Assembly: GCF_009834545.1 (NCBI RefSeq)
Contig: NZ_CP019427.1
Location: 1,398,501 to 1,462,500 of the forward strand
From: Pseudomonas sp. S04
GTDB taxonomy: Bacteria > Pseudomonadota > Gammaproteobacteria > Pseudomonadales > Pseudomonadaceae
Direction: 5' to 3'
Length of the DNA stretch: 64,000 bases
The notes beneath the pieces are model-generated. The model was not told where the DNA came from and searched no databases. It worked only from the letters and a program-made list of their open reading frames with translations. Positions 7,733-64,000 of this stretch are shown here, in pieces. How positions within the stretch are numbered: the stretch's first letter is position 1; each line of letters begins with the position of its first letter. A program made the translations under genes and the position numbers.

Positions 7733-8371
7733 ATGACCTCATCTTTATTGCTGGCCGTCCTTGCCTCCGGTTTTATCTACGGCATCACCCCGGGCCCGGG
7801 CGTGCTCGCGGTGTTTGGCATTGGCGCAGCCCGCGGGCGGCGGGCCGGGGCGGGTTTTCTGTGTGGGCACCTGTTAGGGGATGTGGTCTGGTGCAGCACC
7901 GCATTGATTGCCATCGTCGGCGCGCGGGAAATTGGCAGCAGTGCCTTTGATGTGCTCGGCGTGCTCAGCGGCCTGTACCTGTTCTGGCTGGGCATGCGGG
8001 CGATCCGCAGCCGTCGCAGCAGCGGCGACGCACCTCAGGGCGCGGCGCGGCAACCGTTCTGGCACGGGATCATGTTTGGCCTGACCAACCCCAAGGCTTA
8101 TCCGGTGGCAGTGGCGACCTTTACCGCCCTGTTGTCCAGTCGCGCCGAGTTGCTGCAGTGGTCGATGCTGCCCTGGTTGATCTTTCTGAGCTTCCTTGGT
8201 GGCGTTTTGGCATACGCTATTCTGATTGGCATTGTGGGCGCTCGTCGGGTACGCACGTTGTATCAGCGCCATGAGCTGGCTATTACCCGGATTTGCGGGG
8301 TAATGTTCATCGGTTTCGCCATCAATGCCTTGCTGCACGCGGTGCCGGGGTTGCTGGCCAACAAGAGTTGA
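7733..8371 (+). CDS. LysE-family amino-acid exporter
   Basis: A 212-residue inner-membrane protein with about six helices and the LysE/RhtB signature TPGPGVLAVFGIGAARGRRAG near the N terminus, plus the conserved GLTNPKAYP segment. The family exports amino acids or related metabolites. ATG 7733 is preferred over 7718 because GGAG lies nine bases upstream of it and none precedes the earlier ATG. It appears monocistronic. Substrate unknown. Confidence 0.9.
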   Translation: MTSSLLLAVLASGFIYGITPGPGVLAVFGIGAARGRRAGAGFLCGHLLGDVVWCSTALIAIVGAREIGSSAFDVLGVLSGLYLFWLGMRAIRSRRSSGDAPQGAARQPFWHGIMFGLTNPKAYPVAVATFTALLSSRAELLQWSMLPWLIFLSFLGGVLAYAILIGIVGARRVRTLYQRHELAITRICGVMFIGFAINALLHAVPGLLANKS

Positions 8372-8480
8372 GGCTGCTTGCAGGGCTGCGGCAGCGGCTT
8401 GCGGCCAGCGCGGTGTAGCGCGCAGGCCAGGTCCATGGATAGCTACTCACGGCGGTATTTTTTGACAGTATCCATTCACG

Positions 8481-9824
8481 ATGAGCACTGCAAACTCCGC
8501 GCCATTGGCCAGCTACATCGATCTGCTGCTCGACGTCGTCTGTGCCGTCGACGGACAGGGACGGTTCGTGTTTGTCAGCGCGTCCTGCGAACAAGTGTTC
8601 GGCTACACCCCGGATGAGCTGATTGGCCAGCCGATGATCGAAATGGTGCACCCGGCCGATCGCGAGCGGACCCTGGACGCCGCCCGGGAAATCATGCGCG
8701 GCAAACCCAACCCGAACTTCGAGAATCGCTACCTGCGCAAGGATGGCCAGGTGGTGCATATCCTCTGGTCGGCGCGCTGGTCCGAGGTCGACCAGCTGCG
8801 CATCGCCGTGGCCCGCGACATCACCGAACGCAAACAGGCCGAATCGCGCCAGGCTGCGCTCTACGCGATTTCTGAAGCGGCCCATGCCGCCGAGGATCTG
8901 CTGGCCTTGTTCAAGCGCATTCACCAACTGATCGGTGAATGGCTGCCGGCGCTGAATTTCTCGGTGGCGCTGTACGATGAGCACTGCGAGCAATTGAACT
9001 TCCCGTACCACGTCGACGATCACGAGCGTGATCCCGAGTTCAGCGTGACTGGCCGGCTGTGTGCCGAAGTGGTCCGTAGCGGGCAGCCGGTGCTGCTGAC
9101 CCCCGACCAGCCGTTTGCCTTGCCGGGACTGGCCGGGCTGATCGACGCGCAGGATTGCCCTTGCTGGCTGGGGGTGCCGCTCAATTCGCAACGGGGCACC
9201 ATCGGGGCGCTGATCGTCAAGAGCATGCCTGGCGGCGAGCGCTACACCGAACGCGACAAGGAGCTGCTGCAATACGTCTGCGCCCAAGTGGCGGCAGCGA
9301 TCGAGCGCCGGCAATTGCACAGTCGCCTGCAGTACATGGCGCAGCATGACTACCTGACTCGCCTGCCCAATCGCGAATTACTCCGCGAGCGCCTGAGCGC
9401 GGCCTTGCTCAAGGCCCGCCGGGACAACGGGCGCATGGCCCTGCTGTACGTGGACCTGGACCATTTCAAGCAGGTCAACGATACCTACGGCCACGGCATC
9501 GGCGACATGCTGCTGCAAGCCGTGGCCAATCGGCTGCAAGGTTGCGTGCGCGAGAGCGATACCGTCGCGCGGATTGGTGGCGATGAGTTTGTGGTATTGC
9601 TCGACAGTATCCAGGCCGCAGAAGACGCGGCGCGGGTGGCACTGAAAATTCGCCAGGTGCTGGGCCAGCCCATCCGGCTGGACAGCCACAACCTGAGCAT
9701 TCTGCCGAGCATTGGCGTGGCCTTGTACCCGGAGCACGGCCTCGAGGAAAAGCAGCTGTTCAAGCACGCCGATGAAGCCATGTATGCCGCCAAGCGCCTG
9801 AGTGGACGCCTGGACCGGGCGTGA
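8481..9824 (+). CDS. PAS-GAF-GGDEF diguanylate cyclase
   Basis: A 447-residue cytoplasmic signalling protein. A PAS domain (about 8-115) ends in the typical DITERKQAE linker, a GAF-like domain follows (about 120-285), and a GGDEF domain (287-447) carries an intact active site GGDEF. An RESD inhibitory I-site lies five residues upstream, so product inhibition by cyclic di-GMP is expected. No transmembrane segment is visible, so the signal must reach PAS or GAF inside the cell. No EAL domain. Monocistronic; it follows the LysE gene by 109 bp. Confidence 0.93.
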   Translation: MSTANSAPLASYIDLLLDVVCAVDGQGRFVFVSASCEQVFGYTPDELIGQPMIEMVHPADRERTLDAAREIMRGKPNPNFENRYLRKDGQVVHILWSARWSEVDQLRIAVARDITERKQAESRQAALYAISEAAHAAEDLLALFKRIHQLIGEWLPALNFSVALYDEHCEQLNFPYHVDDHERDPEFSVTGRLCAEVVRSGQPVLLTPDQPFALPGLAGLIDAQDCPCWLGVPLNSQRGTIGALIVKSMPGGERYTERDKELLQYVCAQVAAAIERRQLHSRLQYMAQHDYLTRLPNRELLRERLSAALLKARRDNGRMALLYVDLDHFKQVNDTYGHGIGDMLLQAVANRLQGCVRESDTVARIGGDEFVVLLDSIQAAEDAARVALKIRQVLGQPIRLDSHNLSILPSIGVALYPEHGLEEKQLFKHADEAMYAAKRLSGRLDRA

Positions 9825-9943
9825 GCCGGGGCACCACTCGTCGATGTTTGGACAGCTTTTTTAAACCTTTGCGCGCTTTGGCCTTCGAATGACAGGCGGG
9901 ACGTACCGTTGCATTCATTTGTCTGTTCAAGGAGGGCGCGACC

Positions 9944-62286: not shown

Positions 62287-62396
62287 GCGGGCCATTGCCT
62301 ACACTTAATAAGCCGTACAGACGACATGACAAACGCGGGGCTGCCCGTTAACATGCTCGCCGTCCATCGCGCCGCAGCTCCTTGCGGCCGGTCTGT

Positions 62397-62473
62397 GTCT
62401 CAGTAGCTCAATTGGATAGAGCATCCCCCTCCTAAGGGGAAGGTTGCAGGTTCGAACCCCGCCTGGGACACCA
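62397..62473 (+). tRNA. tRNA-Arg (anticodon CCT)
   Basis: GTCTCAG pairs with CTGGGAC, anticodon loop CTCCTAA gives CCT, CCA encoded; 77 nt. The T stem GCAGG/CCCGC has an A-C mismatch that a bacterial tRNA would not normally show; the 3' half may have been altered when a neighbour integrated. It is a likely integration site. Confidence 0.93.
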
Positions 62474-62728
62474 TATAATTCAATGCTTCTGCGCCTTTTA
62501 GACTGACTGCTGAAGTTGGCGTGACAGCAGGGTGGCAGCAACAGCTGAAGTTTTGGTCAATCAAAGCCCTCAGCCTGCTTCCCTATTCCGCTTCCCATCT
62601 GGGGTTCTCCAGACAAAATACAAAGACCAGCCGATATTTTTCTGGGCTGGCGCTCCCTCCTGCGACTCCGTGGGTTTAGCACCGTCTAGAATGTCTGACT
62701 TGACCGTTTATCAATGGATAGGTATCGA

Positions 62729-63736
62729 ATGGACAGTGTGCGGGATATCGAGGAGCGCATGATTAGCTTCCTCCACGGCCAAGACCATGTAACCCCTCTC
62801 GACGGTCATGTTCCTCAGCCTGATGGCGTCAAGATTGCCGATTATCTGTTTTTCCACAGGCAAGCGGTTGTCGAGCTCAAAACCCTAAAGATCGATCCGA
62901 AAGATAAGATTTTGGATGGCGCTAAATCGCTGATGGAGTCTGACGATTTCCCTCTGATCTTTGGTGACTATGACCTTGAAGCCGCGATGAAGAACACACC
63001 GGGAGGGCAAGAGCACCTAAACAAAATTTTCTCTAGCGCAACCAGGATGGTGGAGGGGGTGCTTAGAAATGCCAAACAACAGATCGCCTCTTCCAAGAGA
63101 CTGCTTAGCCTTGATCCCGACACCCCTGGGATCGCGCTCATATTGAATGACACGGTTGAGAGCATTCCTGCAGCCCGGCTCGCTGACAGGTTCAGCACCC
63201 GGCTCACGGGTGATGGTAAAAATCCGGGCCGCTTCTCGGAGATTGATTTTATAGTTTTGATCCAGACCACCTACCGGCTAAGACAAGCTGGCGGAGGATC
63301 GACACGCCTGCCGACTTTCATTATAAGCAATCCCTTCAATGCTCATCGCCATCATAAAATTGAGCAAGAAATTCAGTTTTTTTTGCAGGCTTGGGCCCGC
63401 TCGCAGGGTCACAATTTTGAAAGTACGAGTGCAACGTCTGGCCTTCACTTTGAGCACAACCAAGATCCTCGCCCTGGCCCCCAGTCGTTGCAGGAATTCG
63501 TAGAGGAGCAATATCGGGCACGCAGATATATGAGCGAGTGGAGCGAAGAGAAGCTAATTGCTCACGGCAAGAATGTGATTCAGAAGATGCTACCAATATT
63601 TCTCAAAGGTGCAGAAAAACCTTCAGAAGCCGACTCTCATTTCTTCATCAAGCAATTCACGGAACTGCTTGAGGAGGGTCGGATAAGGGGATTTGACTTG
63701 AGGAAAGTATTGAAAGAGATCCCTAGGCCCAGGTAA
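62729..63736 (+). CDS. Unrecognised island gene, possible PD-(D/E)XK nuclease
   Basis: A 335-residue protein in DNA of visibly lower GC than the flanks. Near the N terminus GVKIADYLFF (D38) and VVELKTLK (E49-x-K51) match the D...(D/E)-x-K pattern of PD-(D/E)XK nucleases; the rest is charged and helical (NAKQQIASSKRLLSLD, FLQAWARSQGHNF). I know no family that fits. ATG 62729 has AGG seven bases upstream; ATG 62714 is possible. Only gene of the tRNA-bounded tract, with no partner gene. Confidence 0.65.
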   Translation: MDSVRDIEERMISFLHGQDHVTPLDGHVPQPDGVKIADYLFFHRQAVVELKTLKIDPKDKILDGAKSLMESDDFPLIFGDYDLEAAMKNTPGGQEHLNKIFSSATRMVEGVLRNAKQQIASSKRLLSLDPDTPGIALILNDTVESIPAARLADRFSTRLTGDGKNPGRFSEIDFIVLIQTTYRLRQAGGGSTRLPTFIISNPFNAHRHHKIEQEIQFFLQAWARSQGHNFESTSATSGLHFEHNQDPRPGPQSLQEFVEEQYRARRYMSEWSEEKLIAHGKNVIQKMLPIFLKGAEKPSEADSHFFIKQFTELLEEGRIRGFDLRKVLKEIPRPR

Positions 63737-63813
63737 TTACTCTTCGTCTATTTTTTTAAATCAACATGTTGGCCATGATGGATGTTTGGAGGTAAGAGGT
63801 TGCTCCAGATAAC

Positions 63814-63838
63814 GGTTCGAACCTGCCTTGGGACACCA
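63814..63838. repeat. Partial copy of tRNA-Arg(CCT) 3' end (att-like)
   Basis: GGTTCGAACC-TGCCTT-GGGACACCA repeats the T loop and CCA end of the tRNA at 62449-62473 with four mismatches. Compatible with an attachment site left by integration. Confidence 0.6.
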
Positions 63839-63921
63839 CTCACATTGAGTATCTTCAGTTGATGTCGATTACCGCCGGCGTCCCTCGTCCATGGGGCAAG
63901 GCAATCATGCTGCTGATGCTG

Positions 63922-63959
63922 AAAAAGCCCCGCTCTGGCCCTGCCTGGCGGGGTTTTTT
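63922..63959 (+). terminator. Rho-independent terminator
   Basis: AAAAAGCCCCGC and GCGGGGTTTTTT pair around a 15-base loop; 185 bp after the island gene and beyond the att-like repeat, it may originally have ended the tRNA-Arg transcript. Confidence 0.75.
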
Positions 63960-64000
63960 CATTTCAGTGGTAGCTGCACCTGGTTAGAGGGTAGGTGGCT

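Follow-up and report, generated by a model that had tools for sequence, protein, structure and literature searches.

A stretch of 64,000 nucleotides (nt) of the Pseudomonas sp. S04 genome (the window; bases 1398501-1462500 of the 6.10-Mb chromosome) carries, next to the transfer RNA (tRNA) gene tRNA-Arg(CCT), a short tract with a gene for a nuclease-like protein of 335 amino acids (aa) and, behind it, an imperfect copy of the tRNA 3' end. Judging from sequence comparison, we take this tract to be a remnant of a larger tRNA island. It is probably the stranded left end of a tRNA-Arg(CCT) island, retaining what most likely is a stand-alone PD-(D/E)XK nuclease directed against phages or other mobile elements.

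The tract and its parent island

In P. extremorientalis the same gene occupies the cargo slot that separates the tRNA from a serine recombinase gene, and the left end of that island is about 95% identical to the left 1.28 kb of the window's tract. From the start of the tRNA to near the end of the gene, 1267 of 1330 nt are identical. Beyond the stop codon the two agree exactly for another 15 nt, which belong to the 3' end of the recombinase gene, and the identity ends at 63751. The features of the tract are the following:

62397-62473, plus strand: tRNA-Arg(CCT), an integration hotspot (Rfam score 64.1 bits), whose last 25 bases (62449-62473) are the proximal repeat
62474-62728, plus strand: island left end, matching that of P. 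extremorientalis at 242 of 255 positions
62521-62540, plus strand: 20-bp end motif GTGACAGCAGGGTGGCAGCA, a putative integrase arm site, with no second copy in the genome when up to 3 mismatches are allowed
62729-63736, plus strand: cargo gene for the 335-aa nuclease-like protein; a longer open reading frame (ORF) begins with an ATG at 62714 (340 aa)
62750-62752 and 63080-63082, plus strand: further conserved codons, E8 and Q118, counted from 62729
62840-62881, plus strand: codons of the putative PD-(D/E)XK site (D38, 62840-62842; E49, 62873-62875; K51, 62879-62881)
63737-63751, minus strand: final 15 nt of a serine-recombinase gene, an exact run against positions 9009-9023 of the P. extremorientalis locus (L006), followed by the break
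63752-63812, no strand assigned: 61 bp of other origin, ending in CCAGATAA, possibly the right end of a different element that inserts in the T-loop
63814-63838, plus strand: second, imperfect copy of the tRNA 3' end (the distal copy)
63937-63955, plus strand: terminator-like hairpin 3' of the distal copy

The gene lies 255 bp from the tRNA and 77 bp from the distal copy. Most relatives in a 39-member alignment begin at residue 6, which makes 62729 the likely start. An initial annotation of this DNA had described an integrase-less tract with a lone gene of lower guanine-plus-cytosine (GC) content between two copies of the tRNA 3' end, and each of these observations was borne out: the two copies agree at 21 of 25 positions, GC makes up 49.9% of the gene and 49.2% of the tract, compared with 60.4% of the window, and the list of ORFs in the tract shows no integrase. 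A pattern derived from the repeats occurred twice in the window (up to 3 mismatches) and never in 100 shuffles; since the pattern was built from both copies, the shuffle result shows only that a third copy is absent. The tract could not be upheld as one unit, because homology to the parent island ends at 63751, short of the distal copy.

In the complete islands (n = 3, 13-15 kb), the tRNA is followed by a single cargo gene of variable kind, then by a serine recombinase, additional genes, a tyrosine integrase and, last, a long tRNA-derived repeat. The island of P. extremorientalis measures 14.0 kb and that of Pseudomonas sp. WS 5079 13.0 kb. In both, a serine recombinase on the opposite strand follows the nuclease gene (Pfam Resolvase for P. 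extremorientalis), and a tyrosine integrase and the far repeat lie 12-13 kb from the tRNA. The integrase at the far end is common to these two islands, at 95% in P. extremorientalis (with one stop in the aligned stretch) and 87% in WS 5079. Genome G160 has a complete 15.1-kb island with an integrase by Pfam; in genome G053 both ends were found 32.9 kb apart, with other cargo and the recombinase present. The 20-bp motif stands near both ends of each of the three complete islands, and, with as many as 3 mismatches allowed, GTGACAGCAGGGTGGCAGCA or its sister type is near both ends of all four islands whose two ends could be located, a placement that may suit an integrase arm site. The island repeats extend into the anticodon stem-loop (CCTAAGGGG...).

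The window copy has the shared left end and the tRNA-adjacent cargo slot of these islands. The serine recombinase and the tyrosine integrase are absent from it, 15 nt of the recombinase gene being left, and the long anticodon-region repeat and the end motif of the far end are lacking. GTGACAGCAGGGTGGCAGCA was found once in the window, at 62521, and once in the whole genome. Searching the genome of S04 gave no recombinase match with an expect value (E) of 1e-60 or lower and no close cognate integrase, the integrase matches being distant ones of 24-35% over parts. For the 264 bp on the right-hand side, the listed matches in other genomes were all short, at most about 57 bp. The tRNA-flanked single-cargo element proposed initially is thus better described as a left end that was truncated and has neither recombinase nor integrase. 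In the window, the left end of the island, its cargo gene and 15 nt of the recombinase gene adjoin a foreign end. Elements may have stacked at tRNA-Arg(CCT), after which a deletion would have removed the recombinase and the integrase.

Distribution of the gene and the empty site

The nuclease gene was found in 4 of 298 Pseudomonas genomes, that of S04 included, and in 2 of 369 genomes of a wider class sample, the two being S04 and a genome with a short relative. Among named genomes, scanning turned up four loci, in P. extremorientalis (96%), Pseudomonas sp. WS 5079 (59%), ICMP22404 (57%) and Irchel 3E13 (64%, best segment). In three of them (L006, L007 and L009) the gene comes next after tRNA-Arg(CCT), 150-260 bp off; no tRNA was found in the fourth (L008). 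With copies in three of the 297 other Pseudomonas genomes, the gene is not fixed in place, in agreement with the mobile origin proposed at the outset, and the related strains do not all keep the gene and both repeats at the same position. At the Irchel 3E13 locus, the ORF list shows no recombinase beside the copy, which is split; together these observations suggest that decay at the tRNA site may have recurred.

Comparison of this site across genomes supports an empty site for P. extremorientalis only. Its DNA past the far repeat matched the DNA behind the tRNA of genomes G017 and G031 at 111 of 151 and 105 of 154 positions, the comparison level given by the island left end being 73 of 160 and 70 of 158, which points to an unoccupied site in these two genomes. 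The far flank of WS 5079 stayed at background level (78 of 182 and 84 of 180), and so did the flank of the window's own site, as described below. Among 48 other tRNA-Arg(CCT) loci, 18 have no end motif and carry a terminator 75 bp or less from the tRNA; in this pattern classing of 49 tRNA loci, 21 fell in neither class.

The distal repeat

The distal copy agrees with the commonest 3' end of Pseudomonas tRNA-Arg(CCT) at 23 of 24 positions, against 21 of 25 for its own tRNA. That commonest type was found exactly in 40 of 49 genomes examined, the tRNA loci coming from 23 genomes with a match and 30 fetched loci, one per genome. The copy is directly preceded by CCAGATAA and is without the anticodon-region part present in the island repeats. 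In genome G383 the tRNA is broken in the T-loop, with GGCAGTTC and then TTATCTGGGG on the left and, about 77 kb off, CCCCGGATAA and then CAGTTCGAACC on the right. The window matches the right ends in G383 and G377 at about 91% over 35-36 bp, of which just 8-9 bp lie outside the repeat. The repeat resembles another class of ends, and we suggest with modest confidence that it may be the scar of an insertion of the T-loop type.

At the insertion of about 77 kb in G383 (L133, L087), the ends are inverted (TTATCYGGGG) and 6 bp, CAGTTC, are duplicated. Two genes beside its right end, encoding proteins of 756 and 243 aa, matched no Pfam or NCBIfam family, so this second element has no name as yet. 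An excerpt of a study of GInt islands describes a ginABCD operon at one end (PMC5385486); for the 756-aa and 243-aa genes the comparison covered Pfam and NCBIfam models.

The distal copy was at first regarded as the displaced native 3' end of the tRNA, with a CCTGC half that pairs with GCAGG of the T-arm. This was rejected, because the tRNA type of the window occurs in genomes G033, G034 and G098 without an adjacent island end; in these genomes the terminator is close behind the tRNA.

Conserved residues and architecture of the cargo protein

An alignment of 38 relatives, the first made, covered 51-96% identity to the window protein. D38, E49, K51 and Q118 are invariant in alignments of 10 and of 58 sequences, and E8 is invariant in the former and conserved at 90% or more in the latter. 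The set E8, D38, E49-x-K51 and Q118 is kept down to ORF226 of P2-EC67. PD-(D/E)XK nucleases have a conserved D...(D/E)-x-K triad, often with an acidic residue in the first helix, and an alpha-beta-beta-beta-alpha-beta core, and their cleavage of nucleic acids depends on metal ions. D38, E49 and K51 supply the triad of the superfamily, and the predicted strands and helices follow the PD-(D/E)XK order, with D38 beside strand 39-41 and E49 and K51 in strand 46-53. A second structure prediction had a predicted local distance difference test score (pLDDT) of 90. The residues support the PD-(D/E)XK site suspected in the initial annotation, being invariant in 58 sequences; the fold searches gave weak matches, with unrelated folds scoring equal or higher.

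These features suggest a nuclease activity, and the protein would consist of an N-terminal nuclease core with these five residues followed by a C-terminal helical domain. The helical domain may weakly resemble MazG-like nucleotide pyrophosphatases, which are all-alpha proteins with a metal-binding acidic motif. The core alone is found in P2-type prophages, and the core with the helical domain in Pseudomonas, Kerstersia, Vibrio, Shewanella and Catenovulum. Searches of solved structures by sequence gave cystathionine beta-synthase in one case (E 0.53) and Alba1 in a second (E 0.0026, residues 266-335), and neither NucC nor BsmI was matched. NucC is activated by a cyclic nucleotide, and the tract has no partner gene. 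Among the 39 members of the alignment, comparison with Pfam produced 13 mutually unrelated families, each in 1-5 members, with a best E of 0.0025.

A homologue in a P2 antiviral hotspot

At 28.5% identity over 61% of its length, the short relative P0043 matched ORF226 of P2-EC67 (E 5e-6) and a gene of phage vB_EcoM-720R8 (E 6e-6), and a profile of the Pseudomonas family matched ORF226 with an hhalign probability of 97.2% over 143 columns. ORF226 has a homologous core with the same E8, D38, E49, K51 and Q118. It is 226 aa long, without the C-terminal helical domain, and unlike the Pseudomonas gene it is not adjacent to a tRNA. Close copies of ORF226 lie between gpA (replication) and the portal gene in one phage and two prophages, the record of P2-EC67 itself being too short to show this placement. 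Copies of at least 95% identity were present in 27 of 5426 E. coli genomes. All 12 members of one 12-member alignment matched phrog_20483, which is annotated as of unknown function and to which ORF226 would also belong. Scans of viral contigs gave no relative, and no phage was found with the full-length protein.

The position between gpA and the portal gene is described, in an excerpt of Rousset et al. 2022 (PMC9122126), as a P2 hotspot with diverse anti-phage systems, and ORF226 might already figure in the tables of that paper. Like the slot described below, the P2/P4 hotspots of that excerpt are small loci of high turnover between two conserved genes, and the homologue lies within one of them. 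The Pseudomonas slot differs from the P2/P4 hotspots in its neighbours, with tRNA-Arg(CCT) on one side and a serine recombinase on the other, and in being part of an integrase island. In this way, what had been a single gene of no recognised family becomes a family that can be tested and that connects the Pseudomonas tRNA island to a P2 antiviral hotspot already in the literature.

The cargo slot beside the recombinase

A search with the recombinase gave matches of E 1e-60 or lower in 70 of 398 genomes, and 30 loci from high up in the list were retrieved. A 3' end of the tRNA-Arg(CCT) type was found 623-1287 bp off in 21 of the 30, with one ORF of at least 100 aa between; the other nine comprised one with another tRNA, seven with no such end within reach and one in which no recombinase was found. 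Of these 21 loci, 14 adjoin an intact tRNA; the other 7 adjoin a repeat-like copy, a sign that islands may be stacked. In L094, L095, L097, L109, L112, L114 and L117 the slot is bounded by a repeat like that of the far end, not by the tRNA, as would be expected of islands in tandem.

Two of the 21 slots carry the nuclease, those of G342 (P. extremorientalis) and G191 (WS 5079). Ten of the other 19 cargos, hand-picked by us, were scanned, and the matches were AbiJ_NTD4 with PDC-S32, DUF2971 with PDC-S31, SEC-C (weak) and DUF6680; the remaining cargos had no match above the curated cut-off. The G160 island carries an anti-phage dCTP deaminase (L086, reverse complement 8115-9890; NF041025, 466.4 bits with a cut-off of 400; dCTPase in PADLOC). 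We regard the nuclease gene as one case of an exchangeable, defence-type cargo on tRNA islands. The proposal that it is a defence gene is in this respect supported by its context, which makes it a likely defence cargo.

Integrase-only defence islands at tRNA and transfer-messenger RNA (tmRNA) genes, as described in an excerpt of Hochhauser et al. 2023 (PMC10121019), are alike in integrase, insertion at tRNA or tmRNA and defence cargo. Islands I23, I44 and I55 of strain SBW25 have a 14-bp repeat from the end of the tmRNA, according to an excerpt of PMC12595487; these insert at tmRNA and have other gene content, and the window copy is truncated. Among the literature matches listed, titles and abstract openings described neither this site nor the nuclease family. 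The slot of about 0.6-1.3 kb beside a conserved recombinase is a source for more candidate defence genes.

On a plasmid of Skermanella rosea (L136, 5325-6720), a distant homologue overlaps a gene on the same strand annotated as a "recombinase family protein". This overlap suggests that the pairing of nuclease and recombinase recurs outside Pseudomonas.

Weighing the interpretations

One gene flanked by two repeat copies could also be a true minimal element, with copies of the tRNA 3' end on both sides and moved in trans by the integrases of related islands, and the genus does have islands with an identical left-end type. We hold this to be very improbable: the end motif is present on the left only, as against both ends in four of four islands, the distal copy is without the CCTAAGGGG-side part and is preceded by CCAGATAA as in G383 and G377, the island homology stops 15 nt inside the recombinase gene, and a close cognate integrase is lacking in the own genome. 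A mobile mini-element was rejected on the same evidence, and the case is a warning that one gene between two tRNA-end repeats is not necessarily enclosed by the two ends of one element. The stranded island end is therefore preferred. Certain results speak against this reading and that of a retained anti-phage nuclease: the distal flank of the window compares with the empty loci of G017 and G031 only at background level (73 of 162 and 68 of 158) and no empty site was found for the window itself, a scan of 62380-64000 for sigma-70-like promoters gave none against 1.4 expected, and the Irchel 3E13 copy at the same tRNA (L009, 8001-9001) is split into two frames. The dN/dS (nonsynonymous to synonymous substitution) values against P. 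extremorientalis, 0.018/0.149 or about 0.12, show purifying selection, but they are an average over both lineages and cannot date the truncation.

As to the protein, the points on the other side are those of family and fold. No model of Pfam, NCBIfam 20.0 or PADLOC 2.0.0 matches it, nor does any named anti-phage system in the latter two, as the initial annotation had anticipated in recognising no family; PADLOC gave none for four relatives and a weak match (E 0.028) for the short L132 protein. Foldseek (PDB, BFVD) returned no match at E 0.001 or better, one BFVD row of E 0.035 being named PD-(D/E)XK. In the fold searches nucleases were among the weak matches and unrelated folds scored as high or higher; in a second look an acetyl-CoA carboxylase domain outscored the nucleases, with dehydrogenases near, and no family in the VIA lists stood out from the others. 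The conserved residues could thus mark a site of another fold, with a role unrelated to nucleic-acid cleavage, which we regard as quite unlikely. It is somewhat less unlikely, though still improbable, that the gene serves the island, as a helper in recombination or maintenance or as a nuclease against competing mobile elements and not phages. It adjoins the recombinase in P. extremorientalis and WS 5079, and the Skermanella homologue overlaps a recombinase-family gene. However, the recombinase-adjacent slot holds other genes elsewhere, so the nuclease is exchangeable, and in the P2-type stretches shown no serine recombinase is annotated near the homologue. A single-protein anti-phage or anti-mobile-element nuclease, which we prefer, would cut nucleic acid on infection, and the C-terminal helical domain would perhaps recognise the trigger; given the weak resemblance to MazG, nucleotides that vary in the course of an infection might control the nuclease. 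The scan of slot cargos weakens the defence context, with two of the ten matching candidate-defence models (E 2.3e-11 and 7.7e-7), one matching weakly by SEC-C and seven not at all. That the family is an unnamed single-protein anti-phage nuclease family with such a MazG-like gate, and that the slot between tRNA-Arg(CCT) and the recombinase is a further antiviral hotspot, is a tentative proposal, possible rather than probable.

A gene beside the P2-type homologue

In the P2-type records L134, L135, L137 and L138, a 313-aa gene, which had no PADLOC model match, follows the ORF226 homologue on the opposite strand (ORF313 in L134).
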